Of a stretch of 64,000 nucleotides of DNA, positions 3,552 through 57,879 are shown piece by piece. The stretch is from Paenibacillus sp. GP183 (GTDB taxonomy: Bacteria > Bacillota > Bacilli > Paenibacillales > NBRC-103111): the NCBI RefSeq assembly GCF_900104695.1, contig NZ_FNSW01000001.1, positions 2,356,001 to 2,420,000 of the forward strand, written 5' to 3'. The notes beneath the pieces are model-generated. The model searched no databases. It was given only the letters and a program-made list of their open reading frames with translations, and was not told where the DNA came from. The position numbers and the translations under genes are program-made. How positions within the stretch are numbered: position 1 is the stretch's first letter; each line of letters starts with the position of its first letter.

Positions 3552-3554
3552 ACC

Positions 3555-3650
3555 AAGGATAAACGGCTACGCCGTCATTAATGACGAGCGCGTTTGTCAA
3601 GGTTGATGCGAAGCAAGATAAGTTTAGAAAAACTTATGCTACTTATCAAC
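3555..3650 (+). repeat. Dispersed two-hairpin repeat, copy 1
   Basis: First of three same-orientation copies (others at 37655 and 55798). Hairpin 1 spans 3558-3598: an 8 bp outer stem (GATAAACG with CGTTTGTC, one G-T), a one-sided bulge GCTA, a 3 bp CGC/GCG stem, then CGTC/GACG around a 6-base loop. Hairpin 2 spans 3602-3650: GTTGAT pairs with ATCAAC at the outside, and ATAAGTTT pairs with AAACTTAT around AGAA inside. There is no credible coding capacity. Confidence 0.85.
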
Positions 3651-3694
3651 AAAAAAAAGCCCAAGCATGGAATTTCCATTCCATGCTTGGGCTT
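3651..3694 (-). terminator. Terminator of the aldo/keto reductase gene
   Basis: A 17 bp perfect stem (3657-3673 with 3678-3694) around a 4-base loop. On the minus strand it is followed by a run of eight T. It lies seven bases after the aldo/keto reductase stop codon and abuts repeat copy 1. Confidence 0.93.
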
Positions 3695-14208: not shown

Positions 14209-15635
14209 ACTCATCCAATTATCAAGAGCTCGAGTATGCCATAGCGGAAATCACGGAAATCGCCGAGGGCTTCGGCCTTGATTTTTATCCGATGCGCTAT
14301 GAAATCTGTCCTGCCGATATCATCTATACATTCGGTGCTTACGGAATGCCTACCCGCTACAGCCACTGGAGCTTTGGCAAAAATTTTCACCGCATGAAGA
14401 CTCAGTACGATCTGGGACTGAGCAAAATTTATGAGCTGGTAATCAATTCCGATCCCTGCTATGCATTCTTGCTCGAAGGCAATTCGCTGATTCAAAATAA
14501 ATTGATTGTTGCCCATGTGCTCGCGCATTGTGACTTTTTCAAAAATAATGCACGCTTTTCGAAAACAAACCGCAACATGGTAGAGAGCATGTCCGCCTCC
14601 GCCGAACGAATTCGCCAATATGAATTGGAGCATGGTACGGAAGAAGTGGAGCAATTCATCGATGCCGTTCTAGCCATACAGGAGCATGTTGATCCTACCC
14701 TGCATATGCCCTATCGACAGAAGGAAGCGAGGCACGACAAAAGAAAGTCAGCGTCGGCCCTTCTCCCGAACGAGCCTAAGTTCGGCTATGAGGATCTATG
14801 GGACCTGGATAACGAGCGAGTTCAGCCGTCACCCTCGAAGGAAGAGTCCAACCGATTCCCCATTCACCCGGAAAAGGATTTGCTGCTCTTTATCGAGGAG
14901 CATGCGCCTTACATGGAAGAGTGGCAGCGCGATATTCTCACCATGCTGCGTGACGAGATGCTCTACTTTTGGCCGCAGCTGGAGACGAAAATCATGAACG
15001 AAGGCTGGGCTTCCTACTGGCATCAGCATATTCTGCGCGAGCTGGATCTCTCCGAAGAAGAGACGATTGAATTCTCGATGCTGAACTCTTCCGTAGTGCA
15101 GCCTTCCCGCCACACATTGAATCCGTACTATCTGGGCCTCAAGATCTTCGAGGACATCGAAAAACGGTGGGATGCTCCCACAGAGGAAGAGATCAGACGC
15201 GGTCAAAGGCAAGCAGGCGATGGCCGTAAAAAGATCTTTGAAGTCCGCGAATACGAATCAGATACCTCGTTTATCCGCAATTATATGACGAGTGAGCTTG
15301 TTGAGGATTTGGATTTATACATTTTTGAGAAAAAAGGACCGGAGTGGAAAATAACAGATAAAACCTGGGAGACGATCCGAGATCAATTGGTCTATTCACG
15401 AACTAACGGAGGCTTTCCGTATATTGTCGTAGAGGATGGAGACTATCAGCGGAGCGGTGAGTTGTATTTGAAGCATATGTTTGAGCAAGTGGAACTGGAC
15501 CTCAAGTATATTGAGAAGACTCTCCCCTACATCTACCGACTGTGGGGTAAACCCGTTTACCTGGAGACGCTGGTCGAAGATAAACCGGTTTTGTTCAACT
15601 ATGATGGGAAGAAGAATAATCGTAAGTTTTTATAG
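14205..15635 (+). CDS. spoVR: SpoVR family protein
   Basis: 476-residue cytoplasmic protein of the SpoVR/YcgB family, close to the usual length. Recognisable parts are [20 protein letters not shown] near the N-terminus, [24 protein letters not shown] in the centre and [15 protein letters not shown]. In Bacillus, SpoVR contributes to spore cortex formation; its biochemistry is not established. The ATG overlaps the yhbH stop (ATGA). A terminator follows 35 bases after the stop. Confidence 0.95.
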
Positions 15636-37542: not shown

Positions 37543-37654
37543 GTTTGACCCACCTCTGCATATTTGTAATATGGCTATGATAGCAAGATTCGCTGGATGC
37601 ATCAAGTAAAACCTGTTGTGGCAATGCTAAAAGCATTAACTTTTTAAATATTGC

Positions 37655-37752
37655 AAGGATAAACGGCTGCTCCGTCCTTAGAGACGAGAGCGTTTGTCAA
37701 GGTTGATGCGAAGCAAGAGAAGTTTCGAAAAACTTATACTTTTTTTATCAAC
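37655..37752 (+). repeat. Dispersed two-hairpin repeat, copy 2
   Basis: Same element as at 3555, here between divergent serC and thpR. The inner 3 bp stem is CTC/GAG (37670-37672 with 37688-37690) instead of CGC/GCG, so its middle pair changes on both sides and stays paired. The outer stem GATAAACG/CGTTTGTC is identical. Hairpin 2 has loop CGAA and one mismatch, and the element ends at ATCAAC just before the thpR ribosome binding site. Confidence 0.85.
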
Positions 37753-55743: not shown

Positions 55744-55797
55744 TGATCGTTGACCTCCCTATTACAGAAGGTTGTCCAGATTTGATTGCCCTTATAC

Positions 55798-55894
55798 AAG
55801 GATAAACGGCTACGCCGTCCTAAATGACGAGCGCGTTTGTCGAGGTTGATGCGAAGCAAGATAAGTTTAGAAAAACTTATACTTTCTTATCAAC
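55798..55894 (+). repeat. Dispersed two-hairpin repeat, copy 3
   Basis: Nearly identical to copy 1, with the same inner stem CGC/GCG. Hairpin 1 is 55801-55841 and hairpin 2 is 55845-55894 (GTTGAT/ATCAAC outside, ATAAGTTT/AAACTTAT inside). It lies between the YuiC-like gene and the thrS terminator. Confidence 0.85.
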
Positions 55895-55895
55895 A

Positions 55896-55924
55896 CAACA
55901 AAAAGCACTATCCGAAGATAGTGC
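55896..55924 (-). terminator. thrS terminator
   Basis: GCACTATC-CGAA-GATAGTGC (55905-55924), followed on the minus strand by TTTTTGTTG. It directly abuts repeat copy 3. Confidence 0.9.
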
Positions 55925-55944: not shown

Positions 55945-57879
55945 TTACTGCTTCAAGCGAATCTCTTCCTGAATCGTGGCGATGACGCTGTCTACCGGAT
56001 GAGTACCCAGATCGCCTTGGCCGCGTTTACGAATCGACAACGAATCGGAGCTCACTTCATTCTCTCCCACAACCAGCATGAATGGAATTTTCTCAAGCTG
56101 GGCTTCGCGAATTTTGTAGCCGAGCTTCTCATTGCGGTTGTCTGCCTCGACTCGGATACCGGCCATTTTCAGACGCTCAGTCACATCATTCGAGAAAGCT
56201 TCAAAGGCTGGCGATACTGGTATGACTTTGGCTTGAACCGGCATGAGCCAGGTTGGAAGCGCACCTGTAAAGTTTTCCAGCAGGTAGGCTGTCATGCGTT
56301 CCATGGTGCTGATAATCCCTCTATGAATTACGACTGGACGATGCTTTTGGCCATCTTCGCCTACATACTCAAGCTCGAAGCGTTCCGGCAGGAGGAAGTC
56401 CAGCTGAACAGTGGATAAAGTTTCTTCCTTTTTCAAAGCAGTCCTGATTTGCACGTCCAGCTTAGGGCCGTAGAAAGCCGCTTCACCTTCCGCTTCATAA
56501 AACGGCAGATCCATTTCCTCCACAACCTCACGGAGCATACGCTGGGACATTTCCCACATGGCATCGTTTTGAAAATATTTTTCAGTATCCTTGGGATCGC
56601 GATAGGACAATCGGAAACGGTAATCGGTAATGCCGAAATCTTTATATACCTCACGAATCAAAGTCACAACACGTGCGAATTCATCCTTGATCTGATCCGG
56701 ACGACAGAAGATGTGAGCATCATTCAAGGTCATGGCACGCACGCGGTGAAGACCTGTCAAGGCTCCTGACATTTCATAACGATGCATGGTGCCAAGCTCC
56801 GCAATACGTATTGGAAGATCCCTGTAGCTGCGCATATCAGCCTTATAGACCATCATGTGATGCGGACAGTTCATGGGGCGAAGAACGAGCTCTTCATTAT
56901 CCATGATCATCTTGGGAAACATATCTTCATGGTAGTGGTCCCAGTGTCCGGACGTTTTGTAAAGCTCCACGTTGGCAAGCACAGGAGTATACACATGTTG
57001 ATATCCCAGCCGCTCCTCAAGATCAACGATATAACGCTCCATGGTGCGGCGTACCTTTGCTCCGTTAGGCAGCCAAAGCGGCAAGCCCTGTCCCACCTCA
57101 CGGGAAAAAGCGAACATTTTCAGCTCTCTGCCCAGTTTACGATGATCACGCTTTTTGGCTTCTTCCAGCAAATGCAGATGCTCATCCAGCTGTGCCTTCT
57201 TTGGAAAGGCAGTGCCGTAAATGCGCTGAAGCATCTTGTTCTTGGCATCTCCGCGCCAGTAAGCACCCGCGATGCTAAGAAGCTTGAAGGCTTTGATTCT
57301 CCCTGTCGAAGGCAGATGCGGACCTCTGCATAGATCAAAAAACTCGCCCTGCTCGTAAATGGTGATAACGGAGCTCTCCGGCAATTCCCGGATCAGCTCA
57401 AGCTTAAGAGGGTCATCGAGATCGGCGAAAATGCGAAGTGCTTCTTCACGTTCCACGACACGACGATTGATCGGAAGATTTTCCTGCACAATGCGATCCA
57501 TTTCCTTTTCAATTTTGCCCAAATCTTCAGGCGTTAGTGAAGTCTCCAAATCGACGTCATAATAAAACCCATCTTCGATTACAGGTCCAATCCCAAGCTT
57601 CACGGCATTCGTGCCGTAAATCCGTTTAAGCGCCTGGGCCATCAAATGGGCTGTGCTGTGACGGTAAATCTCCAGACCCGCTTCGCTGTCAAGCGTCAAT
57701 ATTTCCACATCGGCATCCTGCTCGATTGCAAAGGATAGATCCACAGGCTTGCCATTCACCTTGCCGGCAATGGCATTCTTCCTCAGCCCAGACGAAATCG
57801 CCTCCGCTACTTGTTCGATGGTTGTGCCATAAGCAAACTCTCTTACTGCGCCATCGGGTAATTTTACTTGTACAACCAT
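55945..57879 (-). CDS. thrS: Threonyl-tRNA synthetase
   Basis: 644 residues, full length. TGS domain (about 1-62: [20 protein letters not shown]), editing domain with [16 protein letters not shown], class II catalytic core ([11 protein letters not shown] has the zinc Cys; [15 protein letters not shown]) and the C-terminal anticodon-binding domain ending at [10 protein letters not shown] and beyond. It charges tRNA-Thr. The ATG at 57879 follows GGGAGG. A T-box leader lies upstream, so expression rises when tRNA-Thr is uncharged. ytxC precedes it, as in Bacillus subtilis. Confidence 0.97.

Follow-up and report, generated by a model that had tools for sequence, protein, structure and literature searches.

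The repeat analysed here is very probably a non-autonomous miniature mobile element of Paenibacillus and its relatives, one that is targeted to intrinsic terminators and chooses its sites much as group IIC introns do. It lies in the window, by which we mean the whole stretch of 64,000 nucleotides of Paenibacillus sp. GP183 (the host) that was analysed, and the initial annotation had taken it for a structure-selected mobile or regulatory element. The mobile part of that proposal is borne out by empty orthologous sites in relatives and by compensatory change in the stems, and the regulatory part, though it may yet hold, is not needed. What had not been seen, and what emerged on mapping the copies against gene ends and strand, is that most of them stand in a near-fixed register behind the T-run of a terminator on the opposite strand.

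Structure and conservation of the element

The element is a unit of about 97 bp, CAAGGATAAACGG...ATCAAC, consisting of two hairpins; copies begin with CAAGGATAAACG and finish with ATCAAC, and the unit has no ORF, no ribozyme domains and no inverted ends. Hairpin 1 has an 8-bp outer stem, a 4-nt bulge and an inner CGCCGUC/GACG-A-GCG stem. Hairpin 2 follows 3 nt later, with an outer GUUGAU/AUCAAC stem and an inner AUAAGUUU/AAACUUAU stem. A scan of the window with a covariance model (CM) at E <= 0.001 returned exactly three copies, at 3554-3650 (CAAGG...ATCAAC, 86.7 bits), 37654-37752 (82.1 bits) and 55797-55894 (92.0 bits), all on the plus strand and all intergenic. The orientation and placement reported initially are thus confirmed, with every start moved one base upstream to a conserved C. 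The two consecutive hairpins fold from the plus strand of each copy, and the stems first named were correct; missed among them was the inner CGC/CGUC-GACG/GCG stem of hairpin 1, past the bulge. In copy 1, folding and covariation place hairpin 1 (GATAAACG/CGTTTGTC plus the inner CGCCGTC/GACG-A-GCG stem) at 3558-3598 and hairpin 2 (outer GTTGAT/ATCAAC, inner ATAAGTTT/AAACTTAT) at 3602-3650. From folding and the CM, the corresponding hairpins lie at 37658-37698 and 37702-37752 in copy 2 and at 55801-55841 and 55845-55894 in copy 3, all on the plus strand. Against 200 dinucleotide shuffles the minimum free energies of copies 1, 2 and 3 have z-scores of -5.40, -1.75 and -4.13, the fold of copy 2 not being significant taken alone (10 of the 200 shuffles were equally stable). 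According to Pfam matches, the neighbours are a DUF1232 protein and an aldo/keto reductase for copy 1, a class-V aminotransferase and a LigT-like phosphoesterase for copy 2, and a 3D-domain protein and threonyl-tRNA synthetase for copy 3.

Substitutions do not ignore the predicted pairs, as the initial annotation had considered they might; the base pairs are kept by compensatory change. When 33 chosen sequences were aligned, both partners had changed in 14 of 26 pairs, and the covariation score was 0.291 against 0.134 when shuffled; this alignment, made of 30 of 41 copies from relatives plus the three window copies, leans towards structure, the 11 excluded copies being mostly divergent or odd-ended. 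A larger set, fitted to the model, took in every one of the 107 matches from 91 chosen loci, 96 of them distinct; here 21 of 26 pairs had changed on both sides, and the score was 0.304 against 0.139 when shuffled and at most 0.057 with the partners slid. The outer stem of hairpin 1 is near-invariant. Most of the compensatory change falls in the outer stem of hairpin 2, where the variants GTTGAT/ATCAAC, GTAGAT/ATCTAC, AATTCTAAG/CTTAGAATT and AAATATAAG/CTTATATTT occur, and hairpin 2 varies between lineages. As to the folding strand, G-U outnumbers A-C by 203 to 65 in the paired columns of the relatives, a ratio to be read with the facts that the model presupposes the plus strand and that four columns supply 152 of the 203 G-U and one supplies 19 of the 65 A-C, leaving 51 to 46 without them. 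No curated Rfam family matched the element at its gathering score in the window or in 60 loci, and 8 loci scanned permissively yielded nothing beyond overlaps at E values of 0.063 and 0.78, under the gathering score. In G014 (L085:1075-1180), the hairpin 1 loop contains a further palindrome, GCTAACACGCAAC...GTTGCGCGTTAGC, possibly another small mobile one.

Copy number and distribution

At E <= 2e-4 the CM has 46 matches in the host genome (5.83 Mb). Relaxing the threshold to E <= 1 raises the number to 52, every one of them on contig C1, and BLAST found 42 matches, 4 of them partial. The covariance-model search envisaged at the outset was thus positive in the host, and it was also positive in relatives, while the suggestion of a hundred or more copies per genome proved too high: a constant density of 3 per 64 kb would have given about 270. 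In the host's family, the CM found the element in 73 of 104 genomes (the host's own included), 33 of them with at least 10 matches. Its presence is patchy, carriers ranging from 1 to over 40 matches, where the per-genome counts are lower bounds drawn from the roughly 40 best candidates scored in each; in these family counts, of element and protein domains alike, a genome with no entry was taken as zero. An exact hairpin 1 pattern occurred in 46 stretches of the genome collection, 43 titled Paenibacillus (P. piri, P. contaminans and P. psychroresistens among them) and three from a metagenome-assembled genome titled Bacilli bacterium. BLAST with one copy was positive in 11 of 40 genomes, the host's own included, three of which belong to other families of the order. 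As for a phage or plasmid vehicle, there was no match in IMG/VR (searched with one exact pattern), PLSDB or INPHARED.

Empty sites and arrays

A 17-kb stretch (L239) in the genome of a relative, G059, holds three copies of the element, and most of it can be aligned, at 84-92% identity, with seven other genomes of the same genus. Four of these (G068, G082, G074 and G081), about 90% identical to G059, have an exact empty site with a gap of 0 (TTTAC|TAAAAAAAG) in place of the copy at 2902-2994; that copy is present in G076 and missing from G061 with 4 diverged bases, and three relatives whose flanks aligned only partly (L262, L265 and L269) were left out. Because the left flank at this exact site and the right end of the element both read TAC, a 3-nt duplication there would look the same as none. 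None of the six relatives with both flanks identifiable has the copy at 14932-15024. The gaps at these sites hold 3 to 17 diverged bases, that of G076 being a shifted alignment start; there the site reads hairpin-CTTTTTTTCA^TCTC, with no shared bases. The third copy is missing from three relatives, in which the flank has diverged. Since orthologous sites are empty in relatives, it follows that the element inserts. Of the 46 host copies, two are flanked by a direct repeat of 2 nt and the remaining 44 by none of that length or longer.

Like units also follow one another head-to-tail in exact arrays: G083 has one with three units of 93 bp, and P. contaminans one with three of 88-89 bp. In addition, members of different subfamilies abut at one terminator, once in the host (1454939/1455036) and twice in G064 (3249797/3249891 and 3071702/3071793), the latter two in opposite orders. 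Slippage cannot join different subfamilies, and we therefore infer from these three pairs that insertion has been repeated at the same terminator. The idea that the terminator-side copy of a tandem pair always scores better was refuted by the reverse-order pair in G064; the poorer scores in tandem pairs reflect the other subfamily rather than decay. One element copy in P. contaminans has a different tandem repeat right beside it (L135:2291-2382), of which two units of about 49 bp were seen, with one base N.

Placement behind intrinsic terminators

Read on the opposite strand, the order is terminator hairpin, T-run, about two bases and then the element. On the plus strand this appears as an A-run at +3 to +9 to the right of the element, both in the 46 host copies and in 96 copies from relatives (those left after removing duplicates and edge cases). 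By our terminator score, which like our gene caller is a simple, unvalidated script, 38 of the 46 right flanks in the host are terminator-like, against one of the 46 left flanks; terminators in the relatives' flanks were judged by eye. The same score called 90 of 351 intergenic TTTTYA control sites terminator-like (Fisher 8e-14), and of 4759 intergenic positions picked at random it called 187. A T-run followed by [T/C]A is enriched on the opposite strand, and the hairpin contributes beyond that short target.

Two of the three window copies illustrate this arrangement. Copy 1 is abutted by the T-run (3651-3658), which forms the insertion target, of a minus-strand intrinsic terminator (3651-3692, hairpin 3659-3692) behind the aldo/keto reductase gene (PF00248). 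Copy 3 lies 5 nt from the T-run (55900-55904) of another minus-strand terminator (55900-55924, hairpin 55905-55924), behind the threonyl-tRNA synthetase gene (55945-57879, minus strand). Both right flanks were counted as terminator-like in the automatic score, and copy 2 is among the eight of 46 host copies with no recognisable terminator.

In 35 of 44 cases the gene to the right lies on the opposite strand and is read towards the element, for which reason a role as a simple plus-strand regulatory RNA (3' UTR or riboswitch) was set aside. Not all of the terminators follow protein genes: host copies are found behind tRNAs (L064, L076) and an FMN riboswitch (L070), another copy behind a T-box leader (L166), and copies in relatives behind a cobalamin riboswitch (L153) and an L20 leader (L080). 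At L070:2938-3486 (host about 1446537-1447085), a truncated and a full unit stand head-to-tail between the FMN riboswitch and the next gene. The association with terminators could have been sharpened by selection against harmful insertions.

Orientation relative to the replication fork

With dnaA as the mark of the origin, 43 of 46, 42 of 52, 19 of 25 and 31 of 32 copies in four genomes are oriented against the fork, 135 of 155 when pooled. From the host, the counts use those 46 of its 52 matches that reach E <= 2e-4. G051 contributes 52 of its 53 matches and G064 32 of its 33, each after removal of one opposite-strand match that overlapped another copy. This orientation makes the strand carrying the terminator hairpin and T-run the lagging-strand template. 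The controls come from the host only: 147 of 196 genes (eleven control regions plus the window) and 60 of 108 terminator-like sites are leading. Measured against these host controls, the pooled count exceeds both the gene bias (p 0.005) and the terminator-site bias (p 1e-8); taken singly, G051 (p 0.47) and G061 (p 1.0) do not exceed the gene bias, and part of the orientation bias may follow gene orientation. At convergent host sites, where gene direction is neutral, 10 of 11 copies are against the fork (p 0.012).

Comparison with group II introns

Bacterial-C group II introns are described as inserting directly behind rho-independent terminators with a preference for the lagging-strand template, and the g6, U1 and U2 types are likewise often found there, in the parts of PMC8919778 consulted; a group IIC RNP is described as recognising a DNA stem-loop in the portion consulted of PMC10190682. 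The element resembles group IIC introns on both counts, by its insertion right behind intrinsic terminators (38 of 46, with the A-run register) and by its preference for the lagging-strand template (135 of 155 pooled). Three host introns and five from G064 start with GTGCG 7-8 nt past a terminator hairpin, after tails such as TTTTTGT, TTTTTCAT or TTTTTCT, and these group II introns share a similar register with the element. A second group II type in G064 (L318-L321, four near-identical copies), which is not behind terminators, starts near GGCGTGTCC after coding-like sequence. The element differs from group II introns in size, at about 97 nt against about 2 kb, and in having no RT, no ribozyme domains and no GTGCG start. 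It shows no similarity above shuffles to three host and G064 intron stretches, and no group II Rfam domain was found on elements in the window and the scanned loci.

In G095, a group II intron (Rfam RF02001, RF00029) begins, as judged by eye, directly past a hairpin-TTTTTTTA. Its 3' end is placed by Rfam at L237:1963, and the next base, 1964, is the first of an element. The intron thus sits exactly between the terminator T-run and the element (L322:2181-2218, L237:1893-2064), the two sharing one insertion point. The simplest order of events is that the element came first and the intron second, at the same site.

Candidate machinery and alternative readings

No mobilising gene for the element was found among the candidates carrying GIIM or Y1_Tnp domains. 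GIIM occurs in 24 of 33 high-copy genomes vs 41 of 71 others (p 0.19) and Y1_Tnp in 12 of 33 vs 24 of 71 (p 0.83); six of the 33 have neither, several of these being drafts, which can hide repeated genes. One of 22 group II loci fetched holds an element, and so does one of 46 Y1 loci fetched (a subset of the carriers' Y1 genes, scanned with the CM), where the element lies beside a Y1 fragment. Eight of the 15 Y1 transposase matches in the host lie on contig C2, where no element copy was found. An autonomous parent was sought among 165 distinct left ends (overlapping loci included) in 1.93 Mb, scanned for a missing hairpin-1 partner, and none was seen, nor any copy with an internal ORF; by eye, the 13 odd ends among the 165 were decayed or had small loop insertions.

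Two readings name a machinery. The element might be a SINE-like retroelement, an opposite-strand RNA inserted in trans at terminator hairpins by the protein or RNP of a group IIC intron. The target register, similar to that of group IIC introns, and the identical strand would fit this, as would the G095 intron at the T-run/element junction, the exact head-to-tail arrays, the 44 host copies with no flanking duplication and the published targeting of group IIC introns, as far as it is set out in the parts consulted of PMC8919778 and PMC10190682. Nevertheless, nine of the 33 high-copy genomes have no GIIM match, the intron stretches compared bear no resemblance to the element, no Rfam group II domain falls on it and the RNA intermediate is putative, and we regard this reading as possible but unlikely. 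In its fullest form, a bacterial counterpart of SINEs in which a non-coding retroelement of about 95 nt parasitises group IIC retrohoming or reverse splicing in trans at terminators throughout the family, it is doubtful. Derivation from IS200/IS605 (Y1 HUH), as a miniature or in a RAYT-type system that excises and inserts single-stranded DNA with hairpins, would likewise account for the hairpins, for the lack of flanking duplication and inverted ends, for the lagging-strand-template bias and for the short T-rich target. Miniature elements derived from IS200/IS605 (PATEs) have hairpins, no target duplication and a single-strand strand bias, all of which the element shares; unlike them, its ends are not matched at any Y1 locus examined, and carriers free of Y1 exist. 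Y1_Tnp is missing from three of seven named carriers, including the complete P. psychroresistens chromosome, and from the high-copy one- or two-contig genomes G051, G064 and G081. Ten host Y1 loci share only chance matches of 9-13 bp with the element in BLAST, and the single element-bearing locus among those fetched has only the Y1 fragment. Moreover, IS200/IS605 hairpins are subterminal, whereas those of the element reach its very tips. We hold such a derivation to be improbable.

The element is also neither a REP nor a classical MITE. Like the REPs and REPINs of RAYT systems (GTAG and CGTC super-families), it is a short intergenic palindrome in many copies, and CGTC REPs apparently have no dedicated transposase, in so far as the consulted text of PMC3733652 treats them; neither Paenibacillus nor terminator occurs in the main text of that source. 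REPs measure 20-40 bp, carry an unpaired GTAG or CGTC tag and often form inverted dimers, whereas the element is a 97-bp unit of two different hairpins with CAAG at its foot, its own CGTC paired, and its tandem arrays run head-to-tail; a Y1 gene flanked by the repeat, as in RAYT systems, was not found at the Y1 loci fetched, the one locus with an element having a Y1 fragment. A MITE of a classical DDE transposon would likewise be short, intergenic and present in many copies, but it would have inverted ends and a target duplication. The ends of the element are not inverted repeats, duplication is absent in 44 of 46 host copies and at the empty sites, and orientation is strand-biased, which leaves this reading with next to no likelihood. 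The near-fixed place behind terminators, the conserved fold and the orientation bias could instead mark a functional RNA of the cell or a protein-binding DNA site, kept there by selection and spread mainly by recombination. Against this stand the sites in relatives that are empty to the base, a copy carried by just one of the seven genomes compared, the uneven distribution (73 of 104 genomes, with between 1 and over 40 matches) and the variation of hairpin 2 between lineages. Such a cellular site is quite improbable, as are the roles that it would suggest (insulator, anti-read-through or topoisomerase/replication site). Pneumococcal BOX, RUP and SPRITE are interspersed structured repeats as well; SPRITE itself resembles a terminator, as described in the part consulted of PMC10969869, while the element lands behind existing ones.

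Proposed mechanism and significance

In the reading that we favour, that of a mobile, terminator-targeted element, the repeat inserts as an exact unit, in most copies a few bases past the T-run of an intrinsic terminator, with the hairpin just upstream. By analogy, target choice and entry would proceed as for group IIC introns, the target being recognised as a single-stranded DNA hairpin and T-run exposed at the replication fork. The element's own hairpins may serve as the identification for a protein or RNP supplied in trans, candidates for which would be a group II intron-type maturase or RNP, or a single-strand (HUH-type) transposase, neither of them present in all carriers. Different subfamilies do stand head-to-tail, in either order, at one terminator, which is what repeated insertion at one point would produce. 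The element is thus group IIC-like in target choice, yet it is not a group IIC intron.

Landing behind terminators allows multiplication in a gene-dense genome with little harm. Among the element types that we found described, group IIC-like introns are the ones behind terminators (PMC8919778, in the parts consulted), and our search of open-licence PMC text, weak evidence of absence though it is, returned no description of this repeat and no terminator-targeted element besides group II introns. That a non-coding element of 97 nt has such a target means either that terminator hairpins have come to be recognised convergently or that the element is a parasite of intron machinery. Being so small, it offers a practicable experimental way to ask what recognises terminator hairpins in single-stranded DNA. 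Since some copies stand behind a riboswitch or T-box leader and ahead of its gene, they could also rewire regulated operons. The left flanks of the 46 host copies have a weak T-C-A preference at -5 to -3, like the right end of the element itself, which perhaps reflects microhomology or a short second target contact.
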